This document shows, piece after piece, positions 507 through 5,253 of a stretch of 44,396 nt of DNA. The stretch lies in the NCBI GenBank assembly GCA_035533595.1, contig DATLTN010000042.1, positions 1 to 44,396 on the forward strand, in the 5' to 3' direction. Each line of letters opens with the position of its first letter. The first letter of the stretch is position 1. The position numbers were made by a program, and so were the translations under genes. This DNA comes from Acidimicrobiales bacterium. GTDB taxonomy: Bacteria; Actinomycetota; Acidimicrobiia; Acidimicrobiales; Bog-793. The notes below the pieces were generated by a model, which saw only the letters and a program-made list of their open reading frames with translations, ran no database searches and had not been told where the DNA came from.

Positions 507-1433
507 ATGCACATCACGACAGAAGCCGAGTGGGGAGAGCAGCGGGAAGCACTGCTCGAAGGGGCGATCGAGTTCGCGCGAGTGATGGAGCGCCGCCCCT
601 TCCAGAACGAGGCGGGGCTGCGGGGCGTGAGCGCCTTCGCCCTCTACTGGTTCGTGAAGCAGCTGCAGCCGGACGTCGTGTTCGAGGTGGGGGTGTGGCG
701 GGGCTTCAGCACGTGGCTCATCGAGCAGGCCGCGCCCGCAGCTGAGGTCTGGTCCTTCGACCCGATCTTCTTCTTCGGCGGCGAGCCGCAGCCCGTCTAC
801 CGCTCGCCCCGTGCCCGCTACTTCCGCGAGGACTTCTCCTGTGCCGACATCGCGGGCGACGTCGCCGCGGCGACGACGCCGCTCGCCTTCTTCGACGACC
901 ACCACCGTCAGCTGGCCCGCCTTGAGCAGTGCCGCCGGGTCGGGATCGAGCACGTGATCTTCGACGACAACCCGCCGCACCCCTACGGCCACCGCACCCT
1001 CGAGGACGAGCGCGCGGATGCCGTCGGCCGCGAAGCGCTCGCCGAGATGGCCGAGCGTTACGAGGTCTTCCCCGCACTCTGGGCGGTCGACGACGTCACC
1101 GAGTACCGCATCCGCGAGGCGGGGCTCGGCTTTCCCGTCACACCCGATCTCGCCTACCTGCACGCCGAGCGCAAGTGGCATTCCTACGTCACCTACGTGA
1201 AGGCCAGCCCCTCGGCAGAGGCGGCGAGGCGACCGGCGGTGGCGGTGGCGAACGGGGGCCTCAACCCGGTGCCCATGGTGCCGACCGACCCGGTGGCGCC
1301 GGCGAGCGCCGACGGGGCGCTGGTCGAGCAGATCCGGCGCCTCGCCTCGGCGAGCTCCGCGGCGATCAGCGCCCTCGACTGCCGCATCGCCTCCCTCGAG
1401 GGCGGGATCGCGGCCCTCGCGAAGAGCGCCTGA
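507..1433 (+). CDS. Class I SAM-dependent methyltransferase-like protein
   Basis: The 308-residue product has a Rossmann-type start. Residues 57-68 read DVVFEVGVWRGF, a glycine-rich motif I (E60, G62, G67) of the kind found in cephalosporin-hydroxylase/Methyltransf_24-like enzymes. A later acidic loop (around FDDNPPHPYG) and the stretch CADIAGDVAAATTP fit a nucleotide-binding fold. The substrate is unknown. The last 40 residues (from LVEQIRRLAS on) form a short heptad-like helix that resembles a coiled coil rather than part of the enzyme. No good ribosome binding site precedes the ATG at 507. The gene ends just before the disrupted GGDEF region in the same orientation. The coiled-coil tail may once have continued in frame into that region. 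Confidence 0.7.
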   Translation: MHITTEAEWGEQREALLEGAIEFARVMERRPFQNEAGLRGVSAFALYWFVKQLQPDVVFEVGVWRGFSTWLIEQAAPAAEVWSFDPIFFFGGEPQPVYRSPRARYFREDFSCADIAGDVAAATTPLAFFDDHHRQLARLEQCRRVGIEHVIFDDNPPHPYGHRTLEDERADAVGREALAEMAERYEVFPALWAVDDVTEYRIREAGLGFPVTPDLAYLHAERKWHSYVTYVKASPSAEAARRPAVAVANGGLNPVPMVPTDPVAPASADGALVEQIRRLASASSAAISALDCRIASLEGGIAALAKSA

Positions 1434-1489
1434 CCGCAGCTCCGGCCTCGGCCCGGCGGTCGACACCGGCGACCGCGCACGACGAGAAC

Positions 1490-2084
1490 GTGGCGCTGAA
1501 GCGGGAGCTTGTCGCGGCGCGAGCGGCGTCGCCCGCCTCCAGCAGCAGCTCAGCCAGCAAAACACCGCGCTCGACCAGCTGAGCGAGACCGAGCAGCTCA
1601 CCGGCCTCGCCAATCGCCGCTACGGCGAGGAGCGTCTGGACGCCGAGATCGAGCGGGCCCACCGCCACCACCGGCCGCTGTCGCTGTTGATGCTCGACCT
1701 CGACCACTTCAAGATGGTGAACGACACCCATGGCCACGCCGGCGGCGACAGCGTGCTGCGCGAGACGGCGCGGCGCATGCAACAGGTGCTGCGCGCCGGC
1801 GACGTCGCGGCGCGTTGGGGGGGGGAGAGGAGTTCCTCCTCATCCTCCCCGAAACCGAGCTCGAGGGCGCCGCTGTGCTCGGCGAGCGAGTGCTCGAAGA
1901 GGTGAGCGAGCGCCTGGTCGTCCTCGGCGACGGACGGAGTTGTGCGGTGACGTTGAGCGCCGGTGCGACGGATGGCGAAGCACGCGCCCGTGACCTGTTC
2001 GTTCGCCTCGCCGACGACGCCCTCTACCGGGCCAAGGCCGCCGGGCGCAACCGCCGCCTCAACCGCGAGGACGACGTGTCGTAG
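1490..2084 (+). pseudogene. Diguanylate cyclase (GGDEF domain), reading frame disrupted
   Basis: A complete GGDEF domain is recognisable but spread over several frames. A helix (from about 1531, RLQQQLSQQNTALDQ) leads into the domain-opening motif LTGLANRR near 1600 and the metal/substrate region LMLDLDHFKMVNDTHGHAGG near 1690. The signature is reached at RWGGE near 1814. The frame then breaks at a run of nine G (1817-1825), and the domain continues in another frame as EEFLLILPETE to the TAG at 2082-2084. Seven G would restore W-G-G-E-E-F exactly. The first frame has no ATG, GTG or TTG before the domain. A GTG at 1490 lies in yet another frame that opens VALKRELVAARA, so a second shift near 1520 is likely. 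Either this is a decayed gene, a slippage-controlled one, or a sequencing error. As read, it would not make an active c-di-GMP synthase. Confidence 0.75.
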
Positions 2085-2186: not shown

Positions 2187-2942
2187 ATGCGGTCGTCGCG
2201 AAGTCACAGCTCGGAGAGGGAGAGCAGAGCAGGTGACGGCGCGCTCGTGATCACCGGTGTGCTGATTGCGGAAGGCGCGAGCGCCCGTGCCGATGCCCCG
2301 ACGACCAAGCGCTACCGCGTCTCGGACGGCCAGACGATCATCGGCCACGCCTCGCTGATCATCGGTTCGGTCGCCCTCGGTGCCGTCCTCCTCGGCTATC
2401 TCCAGGGCAGCGAGATCGTGCCGATGTTCGCCGTCGGCAGCTGTGGCCTGGTGTTTGCCTCACTTTGGTGCACCATCACCAAGCAGTACCCGATTGCGAC
2501 GGTCTACGGAGCCTTCGCCGGCTTCAATTTTAGCTACGCGCTCTTGCAGCTCGGCGTCTCGCACGACTGGTACGCGATCCCAATTGACTCCCTCACCACG
2601 GTGCTCTTGGTCTACGCGCTGTCCTGGCTCGGCATTTTCCTGCTGCTCTCCTTTATCGCCTACCAAGCGTCGTTGACCTCACTCGGCCTCTTCCTCTCGG
2701 TCTCGGCGGGCCTCGGCCTCGTCGCCGGAGCCACCGGTGCCGGCTCACTCACGCTGCTCCGCTGGGCGGCCGTGCCGGTGGGGCTGGTCGCTCTGCTCAG
2801 TGTGAGCGCGATCGGCCACGTGATGTGGGGCTGGCACGTCCGCAACCACATCGCTCGCCAGCGGGCCCGCGGGGCAGTAGTGGGCGGACCAGCGCACCTG
2901 GCCGCCGACCGCCGTCTTCGTTCACGCACGCCTGCCGAATAA
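2187..2942 (+). CDS. Polytopic membrane protein, SatP/GPR1-FUN34-YaaH-like
   Basis: The protein has six predicted hydrophobic segments, starting after a hydrophilic 40-60 residue N-terminus. The segments run from IIGHASLIIGSVALGAVL to LLSVSAIGHVMWGW. Spacing of the helices and the central stretch YGAFAGFNFSYALLQLG resemble the acetate/succinate-proton symporter family (E. coli SatP), in which a Gly-Ala-Phe-Trp segment follows the second helix. The resemblance is by topology and a few residues only, so substrate specificity is not assigned. The open frame extends upstream to 2130, and I chose the ATG at 2187 without a good Shine-Dalgarno sequence. A GTG at 2247 is an alternative. A TAAAGT element at 2141-2146 could be the -10 box. 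The stop is 13 nt before the collagen-like gene, so the two may be co-transcribed. Confidence 0.55.
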   Translation: MRSSRSHSSERESRAGDGALVITGVLIAEGASARADAPTTKRYRVSDGQTIIGHASLIIGSVALGAVLLGYLQGSEIVPMFAVGSCGLVFASLWCTITKQYPIATVYGAFAGFNFSYALLQLGVSHDWYAIPIDSLTTVLLVYALSWLGIFLLLSFIAYQASLTSLGLFLSVSAGLGLVAGATGAGSLTLLRWAAVPVGLVALLSVSAIGHVMWGWHVRNHIARQRARGAVVGGPAHLAADRRLRSRTPAE

Positions 2943-2955
2943 GCGTCGCCAGCTG

Positions 2956-5253
2956 ATGACGCGAACAGATGGTCCGGCAGGCGACAAGCCTGGCGGGGAC
3001 TTCGAGGCGCGGCGCGGCCTGAGCGGCGCCTGGTGCGTGGTGCGCTCTGACCGTAGCCCCGTTGCCCGCGCGGCGCGAGGTGTGGAGATCGCCCTCCTTT
3101 TCGCTGGGACCTCCGTTCTCTGGGCGCCGGCCGCGTTTGCCAGCACCGGTGGCAGCGGCACCGTGGGCGCGGTGTTCGCGTCGAACCGAGGAGCGAACGG
3201 CAAGGTCGTCGATGGCGTGAAGCTCGTCCCCATCACCGCCGGTTCGGCACAGCACGCGCAGCCAGTGAAGAGGCTCAATCCGGTGGCCTTCCAGCTCCTC
3301 GGGTACGGGCCACCCCCGACGGGCAACGGCGCGAGCTCCACTTCCGGCACCTCCACCAACCCGGTCGTGCGGCGGCTCCTGCAGAGCCTCGGCAATGCCT
3401 CCCCTGCGGGGAGTTCGCCTTCGACACCCAACTCCAGCCCCACGGGTGCCAGCGGACTCGGGGGTGGGAGCAACGCGGCGGGCGCGCGTGGGCTGACAGG
3501 GGCGCAGGGCCCGAGCGGCAATTCCGGTCAGCCCGGCCTCCGGGGGAACCCCGGGAGTCTTGGAGCGACCGGGCCGGGAGGACTCGCTGGAACCGCGGGG
3601 AACACGGGGGCCGTGGGGTCGAGCGGTACCGCCGGCAGTAATGGAAATACCGGACCGACGGGCCTCACCGGCGCGACCGGTGCCCAGGGCGTCGAGGGCG
3701 TTCAGGGCGTGAGCGGCTCTCAGGGCGTCCAGGGCGTCAGTGGCTCCAACGGCGCGACCGGCGCCCAGGGAGCTTCGGGCTCCAACGGCGCGACGGGGAG
3801 CTCGGGCGTCAACGGAGCGAACGGCGCCACCGGCGCCACGGGCTCCAACGGCTCCAACGGCGCGACCGGCGCGCAGGGCACCACCGGCGTCACCGGCGCG
3901 CAGGGTCCGGCGGGGCCGACCGGTGTGCAGGGACCGACGGGCCTCACCGGCGCGACCGGTGCCCAGGGCGTCCAGGGCGTGAGCGGTTCTCAGGGCATCC
4001 AGGGCGTCAACGGCGCGTCCGGCGCGACCGGTGCCCAGGGAGCTTCGGGCTCCAACGGCTCCAACGGCGCGCAGGGTCCGACGGGACCGGCCGGTGTGCA
4101 GGGACCGACGGGCCTCACCGGCGCGACCGGCGCCCAGGGCATCCAGGGCGTCAGCGGCTCCAACGGCGCGTCCGGCGCCCAGGGAGCTTCGGGCTCCAAC
4201 GGTTCCAACGGCGCGACCGGGAGCTCGGGCGTCAACGGAGCGAACGGCGCCACCGGCGCCACCGGCTCCAACGGCTCCAACGGCGCGACCGGCGCGCAGG
4301 GCGCCACCGGCGTCACCGGCGCGCAGGGTCTGGCGGGACCGACCGGTGTGCAGGGACCGACGGGTCTCACCGGCGCGACCGGTGCCCAGGGCGTCCAGGG
4401 CGTGAGCGGTTCTCAGGGCATCCAGGGCATCCAGGGCGTCAGCGGCTCCAACGGCTCCAACGGAGCGAACGGCGCGACCGGCGCGCAGGGCACCACCGGC
4501 GTCACCGGCGCGCAGGGTCCGGCGGGACCGACCGGTGTGCAGGGACCGACGGGGCTCACCGGCGCGACCGGTGCCCAGGGCATCCAAGGCGTGAGCGGAT
4601 CGAACGGCGCCACCGGCGCGCAGGGTCCGGCTGGACCGACCGGAGTCCAGGGGCCGAGTGGGTTGCTCGGCGCCACCGGTGTAACAGGTACCCAAGGGGC
4701 ACAGGGCACCCAGGGTTCCACAGGATTGGCTGGTGGCAACGGAGGAACTGGTGCGCAGGGCGCTCAGGGTGTCGCTGGCGCGACCGGACCCCAGGGTGCC
4801 TCTGGTGTGAATGGAGCGAACGGCGCGACCGGCCCGCAGGGCGCCACCGGCGCCCAGGGTACGGCTGGTCTTGGTGGCGCGACGGGTGCGACCGGTGCGG
4901 GCGCGACCGGTGCGACCGGTGTGGGCGCCACGGGTGCCACGGGCGTGCCTGGCGCCACCGGCTCCCAGGGCGCCACCGGGGTTTCAGGCGCGACCGGTGC
5001 CGCTGGAACTGCGGGCGCGTCAGCCTTCACCGCCACCTCCCCGAGAAATCAAGCCACGTTCTTTGTCGTCTGTCCCGGGAGTGAACTCGCTTTTGGTGGC
5101 GGCGGGAGCGAGCCAGGACCTGGACAGCTGCTCGTCTCCGCGCCTACAGATGGCAGCGGCGCCGTCCTCACCGCAGCGGGCGCTGCCCACGGTTGGTCAG
5201 TCACTTTCTCCGCGGCCAACAAACAACCCACCGTGTGGGTGATCTGCGCGTAA
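2956..5253 (+). CDS. Exported collagen-like Gly-X-Y repeat protein
   Basis: This 765-residue protein is built in three parts. Residues 1-63 hold a long Arg-rich n-region and a hydrophobic core (IALLFAGTSVLWAPAAFA) ending in an AFA|ST signal-peptidase-like site. A GTG at codon 28 or 29 would give a more normal signal peptide length. Residues 64-175 are a Ser/Gly/Pro-rich linker. From about 3481 to 5019 the protein is an unbroken run of about 171 Gly-X-Y triplets rich in GAT, GAQ, GSN, GVQ and GPT, typical of bacterial collagen triple helices such as those of BclA-type exosporium proteins. The last 80 residues form a globular domain with two cysteines (VVCPGSELAFGGG and WVICA at the very end). 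A Cys-Pro-Gly...GGG...Trp...Cys layout is common at the C-terminus of secreted actinobacterial proteins. It probably forms a trimeric filament or surface layer. No sortase motif or C-terminal anchor is visible. Confidence 0.9.
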   Translation: MTRTDGPAGDKPGGDFEARRGLSGAWCVVRSDRSPVARAARGVEIALLFAGTSVLWAPAAFASTGGSGTVGAVFASNRGANGKVVDGVKLVPITAGSAQHAQPVKRLNPVAFQLLGYGPPPTGNGASSTSGTSTNPVVRRLLQSLGNASPAGSSPSTPNSSPTGASGLGGGSNAAGARGLTGAQGPSGNSGQPGLRGNPGSLGATGPGGLAGTAGNTGAVGSSGTAGSNGNTGPTGLTGATGAQGVEGVQGVSGSQGVQGVSGSNGATGAQGASGSNGATGSSGVNGANGATGATGSNGSNGATGAQGTTGVTGAQGPAGPTGVQGPTGLTGATGAQGVQGVSGSQGIQGVNGASGATGAQGASGSNGSNGAQGPTGPAGVQGPTGLTGATGAQGIQGVSGSNGASGAQGASGSNGSNGATGSSGVNGANGATGATGSNGSNGATGAQGATGVTGAQGLAGPTGVQGPTGLTGATGAQGVQGVSGSQGIQGIQGVSGSNGSNGANGATGAQGTTGVTGAQGPAGPTGVQGPTGLTGATGAQGIQGVSGSNGATGAQGPAGPTGVQGPSGLLGATGVTGTQGAQGTQGSTGLAGGNGGTGAQGAQGVAGATGPQGASGVNGANGATGPQGATGAQGTAGLGGATGATGAGATGATGVGATGATGVPGATGSQGATGVSGATGAAGTAGASAFTATSPRNQATFFVVCPGSELAFGGGGSEPGPGQLLVSAPTDGSGAVLTAAGAAHGWSVTFSAANKQPTVWVICA
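3652..4650 (+). repeat. Five tandem variable-length macro-repeats in the collagen-like gene
   Basis: Each unit opens with GPTGLTGATGAQG and closes with GVQ, and the first codon of each falls exactly at the end of the previous unit. The units are 3652-3930 (31 triplets), 3931-4101 (19), 4102-4353 (28), 4354-4542 (21) and 4543-4650 (12). A diverged sixth start (GPSGLLGATG) follows at 4651. Length differences are whole triplets, so the frame is kept. The DNA is nearly identical between copies over long stretches, which makes recombination or replication slippage likely. Confidence 0.9.

Follow-up and report, generated by a model that had tools for sequence, protein, structure and literature searches.

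The window, by which is meant the whole stretch of 44,396 nucleotides analysed here, lies on a contig of a 2.79 Mb genome in 73 contigs, and a collagen-like gene is confirmed in it at 2956-5253 on the forward strand, with an ATG start and a product of 765 aa that matches the Pfam family Collagen (PF01391) with an E-value of 7.1e-70. The first-pass annotation had described a secreted collagen-like protein. Its collagen-like nature stands, and its N-terminus is signal-like, as judged by hydropathy and pattern only: a long basic n-region is followed by the hydrophobic core VEIALLFAGTSVLWA and then by AxA sites at 57 and 60. The cysteines of the protein are Cys706 and Cys764, both in the C-terminal domain, and Cys27 in the signal-like n-region, and no wall-sorting motif of the LPXTG/LAXTG type (L[PA]xTG) is found in the 765 residues. 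The parts of the gene are the following:

2956..5253, forward strand: gene for the collagen-like protein, 765 aa (open reading frame and Pfam match)
2956..3141, forward strand: signal-peptide-like region, aa 1-62 (hydropathy and pattern only)
3142..3480, forward strand: N-terminal segment rich in Ser, Thr, Pro, Asn and Gly, aa 63-175 (no Pfam match or clear relatives)
3481..4902, forward strand: 158 uninterrupted Gly-X-Y triplets, aa 176-649, with 3 charged residues (triplet count)
4903..4923, forward strand: two places at which the Gly-X-Y phase slips by one residue, aa 650-656 (triplet count)
4924..5022, forward strand: last 11 Gly-X-Y triplets, aa 657-689 (triplet count)
5005..5250, forward strand: C-terminal domain with two cysteines and six predicted strands, as modelled (model matches a PCSK9 C-terminal module, resistin and an APC-beta repeat)
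5071..5073, forward strand: Cys706 codon, in the CPGSELAFGGGG motif (conserved across the family)
5245..5247, forward strand: Cys764 codon, the last-strand cysteine (conserved across the family)

Used as a query, the N-terminal part returned only its own genome and one weak match (E 0.002), and no clear orthologue. Among the 12 flanking frames tested, 6 pass the Pfam cut-off (MmgE/PrpD, two methyltransferases, a family 2 glycosyltransferase, an aldo/keto reductase and a pyridoxal decarboxylase) and one more has a weak YaaH-like match; none of the 12 gives a pathway hint for the collagen-like protein.

The Gly-X-Y stalk and its macro-repeats

The stalk amounts to 169 triplets in its two runs; when the residues of the protein were shuffled 1000 times, no Gly-X-Y run exceeded 13. 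About 171 uninterrupted triplets had been read at first; the number is close, but the stalk is not uninterrupted, as the two one-residue slips fall between the runs, in the sequence GATGATGA / GATGATGV. Within the longer run the peptide GPTGLTGATGAQG starts at 3652, 3931, 4102, 4354 and 4543, with a degenerate copy at 4651, and its spacing returns exactly the five macro-repeats that had been described:

3652..3930, forward strand: macro-repeat 1, 31 triplets
3931..4101, forward strand: macro-repeat 2, 19 triplets
4102..4353, forward strand: macro-repeat 3, 28 triplets
4354..4542, forward strand: macro-repeat 4, 21 triplets
4543..4650, forward strand: macro-repeat 5, 12 triplets

The high identity of their DNA was likewise borne out: over aligned triplets the pairwise values are 88-97%, with a mean of 92.4%, against a mean of 79.9% and a maximum of 82.7% when the same peptides were recoded with the gene's own codons in 200 draws, and thus the macro-repeats are duplicated DNA and not a similar peptide alone. 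The longest exact internal repeat is 63 bp, a length that an ordinary short-read assembly should be able to span.

In composition, the stalk is nearly devoid of charge (just 3 charged residues in the 158 triplets), as is its paralogue on contig C52 (0.5 per 100 triplets), and proline takes 11% of the X positions and 2% of the Y positions, the value at X being 19% for all bacteria in the review data consulted (PMC8968730). Such a near-absence of charge with little proline is unusual, not unique, and since proline is merely 11% of X and charged residues are nearly absent, the stability of a triple helix is uncertain. These properties, and the two phase slips near the end, would suit a Gly-X-Y region that is simply a long flexible spacer and lacks a stable triple-helical form; we consider this improbable, because 158 triplets run on without a Gly break, and because Thr and Gln, both frequent at Y, are residues that the consulted part of the same review links to hydration-stabilised bacterial triple helices (PMC8968730). 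A collagen triple helix is the form that the stalk would probably have. Threonine at Y had also been read as a sign of O-glycosylation, a suggestion that finds no support: its share of 33% is near the 31.6% tabulated for all bacteria (48.3% for Gram-positives) in the review table (PMC8968730), and the protein O-mannosyltransferase family PF02366 has no match in the genome.

As a collagen, the protein of the window is ordinary, and its collagen part alone is routine and of a known kind. Its own genome has PF01391 matches on four other contigs (C9, C52, C2 and C6), of which C9 and C2 may carry two halves of one gene; such matches occur in 35 of 60 genomes, this one included, and 27 lie above the curated cut-off, and a whole-protein scan of named genomes gave at least 336 relatives, from which 80 loci in several phyla were retained. 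Only 3 of those 80 carry the C-terminal domain. Nor is this domain a general rule for the collagens of its own genome, since two further collagen genes there (L017 and L018) have C-terminal ends that gave no match to it. No report of a collagen-like protein of this sort in actinobacteria was found among the open-licence papers listed. The newness lies in the C-terminal domain.

The C-terminal domain: one copy or three

Several of the collagen relatives have a C-terminal domain of this kind, marked by the pattern CPxG....GGG, a Trp and a last-strand Cys, and from these were built the profiles A1 (5 sequences), A2 (13) and A5 (41). With HMMER default filters 38 proteins were obtained, and long collagen proteins, that of the window included, were missed, apparently through the composition filter; the revised sets held 45 and then 76. 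These 76 distinct proteins come mostly from the window's phylum, with two in Clostridia, and the named carriers include a Ruminococcus MAG (L078), an Oscillospiraceae MAG (L120) and Streptomyces albipurpureus (L118). The closest other copy in the census has 33% identity with the domain of the window, and in the set of 45 the domain forms the C-terminus (20 residues or fewer after it) in 43 proteins. As to prevalence, A1 finds it in 6 of 35 genomes of the family at E 0.01 and in at least 10 of 395 genomes of the class at 1e-4, and A2 in at least 39 of 396 genomes of the phylum at 1e-4, each of these counts including the window's own genome; A5 finds it in at least 30 of 246 genomes of the phylum at 1e-5, in a sample that overlaps that of A2. 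These class- and phylum-wide values are lower bounds, with at most 14, 15 or 23 candidates scored per genome and overlapping genome samples.

At the level of sequence, the domain is uncatalogued: it goes unrecognised by Pfam, NCBIfam and PHROGs, and neither these nor the PDB sequences give a convincing match. The best Pfam match, Big_6 (E 0.0016), and the best NCBIfam match (E 0.0075) each concern one of the 41 members of A5 and are taken as chance. Searched with the 5 members of A1, PHROGs gave one match, at E 0.084, and the viral models gave none to the domain at E 0.001. A phage origin was likewise rejected, there being no match in viral contigs, phages or plasmids with one domain sequence per search. 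Seven weak foreign matches (L021-L027; E 0.003-0.009) to a single-sequence query of the domain in 60 genomes, namely its own and 59 from outside its genus, are also chance, since their frames were inspected and A5 had no match to them at E 1e-4.

The domain is found as well on proteins without collagen (41 of the 76), and its copy number follows a simple rule. If collagen-bearing is defined as having a Gly-X-Y run of 8 or more, all 35 collagen-bearing proteins have one copy, and the 41 others, after reading, have either one (25) or three (16), in no case two or more than three. By the profile alone the same 41 divide into 26 with one copy, 2 with two and 13 with three; the total of 16 is made up of these 13 and of 3 completed by eye, where diverged copies complete the three in L217 and the 322-aa protein of L228 (two by profile) and in the 445-aa protein of L228 (one by profile). 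Fisher's test, relatedness ignored, gives p 1e-5 for the counts by eye; if only the profile is used, and the 2 twos are pooled with the 13 threes, p is 2.3e-5.

Before the census, matches covering fewer than 45 model positions, with fewer than two cysteines or lacking GG, same-place duplicates and frames under 60 aa were dropped; a recheck of this filter (L020-L065 and L146-L236) found that, apart from duplicates, it had removed three genuine proteins with a single copy, none of them with a collagen run of 8, namely L160/L200 (with Arg at the last cysteine position), L222 and L232, with which the total would be 79 and the non-collagen singles 28. The frames of 8 of the 76 run off the 5′ end of their sequence piece (7 collagen, 1 three-copy), and of the 35 collagen proteins 9 or more (that of the window, L033, L035, L036, L041, L058, L078, L118 and L120) were first retrieved for their collagen. 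Exactly two cysteines are present in 102 of the 104 profile-detected copies, a figure that is partly selected, as a best copy with fewer than two did not pass the filter.

The 16 three-copy proteins come from 9 genomes in 7 families. In the 13 arrays the linkers between copies measure 6-15 residues, and the copies within a protein are 28.5% identical on average as against 21% between proteins; because of this difference, and because one array is recent (57-62% identity among its copies), more than one triplication is likely.

A scored stalk-like motif is present in 51 of the 60 single-copy proteins and in none of the 16 three-copy ones; the 60 comprise 35 with collagen, 7 with NLNADxLDG, 3 with AVTxxKL-type repeats, 3 with an SLH-like motif, 3 with short Gly-X-Y and 9 with none, the motifs other than collagen having been picked after the sequences were read. 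The non-collagen motifs are, we assume, linked to trimeric fibres and SLH packing. One protein (L156) is a 113-aa frame with little room for a stalk. An alternative explanation is that the protein is a collagen-like adhesin of the ordinary sort, in which the C-terminal domain binds as a monomer and the collagen trimerises alone or through its N-terminus, and that three copies are merely more binding sites. It would account for the 41 proteins in which the head is found without a collagen run and for the 9 single-copy ones without a stalk motif, and Scl proteins do nucleate at their N-terminal variable domain, according to the part of the review consulted (PMC8968730). However, free duplication should also have yielded proteins with two, four or more copies, and after reading there are none. 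We therefore regard this alternative as rather unlikely, although it deserves a hearing. The reading preferred here is that the domain comes in threes, either from three chains or from one.

The predicted fold and a proposed threefold head

The AlphaFold2 model of the window's domain (pLDDT 83.8, pTM 0.70) and that of the domain of L078, from the Ruminococcus MAG (pLDDT 89.1, pTM 0.76), were built on one shared four-sequence alignment and both have six strands. With VIA-align the best match of the former is module 3 of PCSK9, residues 604-679 (Z 9.2, rmsd 1.6, 66 of 82 residues), followed by resistin (6.8), resistin-like beta (6.6) and Plasmodium APC-beta (6.3), the first row outside this group having Z 4.5. 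For the L078 model, PCSK9 module 3 (Z 9.1, rmsd 1.6, 63 aligned) and module 1 (Z 8.6, rmsd 2.0, 72 aligned) are followed by resistin (6.7), resistin-like beta (6.5) and APC-beta of Toxoplasma (5.6) and Plasmodium (5.2), with the first row outside at 5.0. These values are to be read with the tool's warning that models lacking a clear match typically reach a best Z of 7-8, and the Foldseek E-values are weak for both models (0.12 and worse, none at or below 0.001), phage tailspikes (Cyanophage Pam1, HK620) heading the two lists.

In sequence, profile searches, Pfam and the PDB sequences gave no significant match to PCSK9, resistin or APC-beta. Against the PDB sequences, with E up to 10, A5 had two matches only: a threonine aldolase (E 0.97), which is surely chance, and APC-beta 5ouo, non-significant (E 6.6) and with the CP..VVGG motif aligned in register. 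On the strength of the models, the C-terminal module is predicted to share the fold of the PCSK9 V-domain, resistin and APC-beta. No bacterial member of this fold group is named among the open-licence titles and abstract openings listed.

The members of the group known so far tend to be built in threes, which also argues against a monomeric binding module. In the portions of the sources consulted, APC-beta is built of three direct repeats that form a double-layered, pseudo-threefold beta-prism resembling only the PCSK9 V-domain, where the same pseudo-threefold plan is held with structurally conserved disulfides between the layers (PMC6294395); three homologous repeats, each about 80 residues long, are described (PMC5943054), the PCSK9 domain consists of three structurally similar modules (PMC9515655), and for resistin hexamers are reported, and possibly trimers (PMC4474570). 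There are differences between these known relatives, the whole of APC-beta superposing poorly on the whole PCSK9 V-domain (PMC6294395).

It could also be that the head is a trimeric jelly roll of the C1q/TNF/BclA type, and that its match with PCSK9 and resistin is a generic resemblance between beta-sandwiches. Bacterial collagens with trimeric heads are indeed known, as in Lcl (PMC11162425), phage fibre heads are among the fold matches too, and in the review text consulted the resistin fold itself is called a jelly roll similar to TNF-alpha (PMC4474570). Against this stand the drop to Z 4.5 and 5.0 outside the PCSK9/resistin/APC-beta group and the lack of any Pfam match of the C1q/TNF/BclA type; C1q/TNF folds do not appear among the matches listed for the two models, an absence that proves nothing. 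Some 80 residues with six strands is, moreover, small for C1q/TNF. This jelly roll we judge to be very improbable.

Returning to a head of the PCSK9/resistin/APC-beta type, the fibre would be formed as follows. The protein would be secreted, and three chains would form a collagen triple helix with a length of some 158 + 11 triplets; each chain would contribute at its C-terminus one small beta-module of the double-layered beta-prism kind, held by a Cys706-Cys764 disulfide, and the three modules would close into one threefold head. This head would most likely start and register the triple helix, and would present a binding surface at the tip of the fibre, at a distance from the cell set by the stalk, which in-frame duplication would lengthen or shorten over time. 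That the two-cysteine domain may set the trimer register, as had been suggested from the sequence, is supported indirectly by the predicted fold and by the one-or-three copy rule: where a collagen stalk unites three chains, one module from each would be enough, and a protein without a trimeric stalk would have to supply all three, like PCSK9 and APC-beta. An adhesive or matrix role could be supposed from precedents.

In summary, that the window encodes a secreted collagen fibre whose stalk is registered by a threefold head of this type and changes in length by duplication seems to us probable, if far from assured. The broader idea, which we hold with an evenly divided mind, is that a widespread bacterial domain is the single-module counterpart, and perhaps the source, of the prisms of the PCSK9 V-domain, resistin and APC-beta, a threefold cap present as one copy on a trimeric stalk and as three in tandem otherwise, the fibre of the window being a collagen so registered. 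If true, this would offer (i) a simple rule by which trimeric extracellular proteins could be recognised from their sequence; (ii) a small cap with which engineered bacterial collagens could be trimerised; (iii) and finally, a bacterial family in which to ask about the origin of the modules of PCSK9, resistin and APC-beta.

Among known systems, the bacterial collagen-like proteins Scl, BclA and Lcl are alike in their long Gly-X-Y regions with Thr at Y, their non-collagenous ends and their signal-like N-terminus; in contrast, Scl has a wall anchor and the protein of the window has no sortase motif, its stalk is nearly uncharged, unlike collagens of the Scl, BclA and Lcl type, and its head belongs to another family than theirs, going by the descriptions consulted. 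The same plan is seen in Lcl of Legionella, for which a collagen stalk with a trimeric C-terminal head, in the shape of a lollipop, has been demonstrated (PMC11162425); that head, of about 150 residues (252-401), would be a different one. APC-beta of the apicomplexan perforin-like protein 1 shares the predicted fold (Z 4.8 to 6.3), a CP..VVGG-like motif aligned in the non-significant profile match, and three repeats, but is described with two disulfides per subdomain (PMC6294395) and is attached to a pore-forming domain. Resistin and resistin-like beta, also alike in predicted fold (their best chains reach Z 6.5 to 6.8), carry a single module on the helical stalk of each chain, which in resistin is an alpha-helical coiled coil and in the window a collagen. 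The head of the window has fewer cysteines than resistin, and the modules of PCSK9 have more than two. With the V-domain of PCSK9, its Cys-His-rich domain, the likeness in predicted fold of one module is closest (Z 9.2 and 9.1); there the head of the window differs in being bacterial, with two cysteines per module and one copy per chain on collagen, whereas the three modules of PCSK9 would be mirrored by the bacterial proteins that carry three copies.

Single heads behind other N-terminal segments

The two-cysteine C-terminal domain, or head, is found as one copy each at nine loci (L203, L209, L210, L214, L221, L222, L233, L235 and L171). Ahead of the head, the proteins of these loci share a hydrophobic segment at the N-terminus that is alike among them, and they also carry an LNADxLDG-like stretch, as phage tail fibres do. 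In three further proteins (L147, L150 and L159) the head is placed after an apparently lone motif, which we take to be SLH-like; since SLH motifs usually come in threes, one such motif per chain would fit, by analogy, with a trimer.

Reading frames over and upstream of the collagen gene

2797-4695, minus strand: 632-aa open frame, antisense to the collagen repeats
1432-2084, plus strand: GGDEF-type (GGEEF) domain, so assigned from its motif only

The first of these frames probably arises incidentally from the GC-rich repeat. The reading of the GGEEF domain is split over two frames, and the switch, near 1817-1825, is a run of nine Gs within the motif, where the assembly is at fault or else slippage occurs.

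Other collagen genes and a sortase-like end

In the window's own genome, two further collagen genes (L016 on contig C9, with two collagen stretches and a non-collagen domain in between, and L018 on C2) each reach the contig end within repeats, and may be two halves of a single gene. A paralogue of the window protein (L017, on C52; 849-aa open frame, 184 triplets) shares its layout, but its C-terminal domain differs, ending in ...KVSWICVGT, and no Pfam match was found for that domain; the stalk is of one type in both and the head is swapped. A 704-aa open frame (L019, on C6) contains short Gly-X-Y spacers and, by appearance, is presumably SpoIID/LytB-like. Finally, a relative's collagen protein (L032) ends in LAYTG, a run of hydrophobic residues and finally a charged tail, which together we take to resemble a sortase signal, unlike the end of the window protein.
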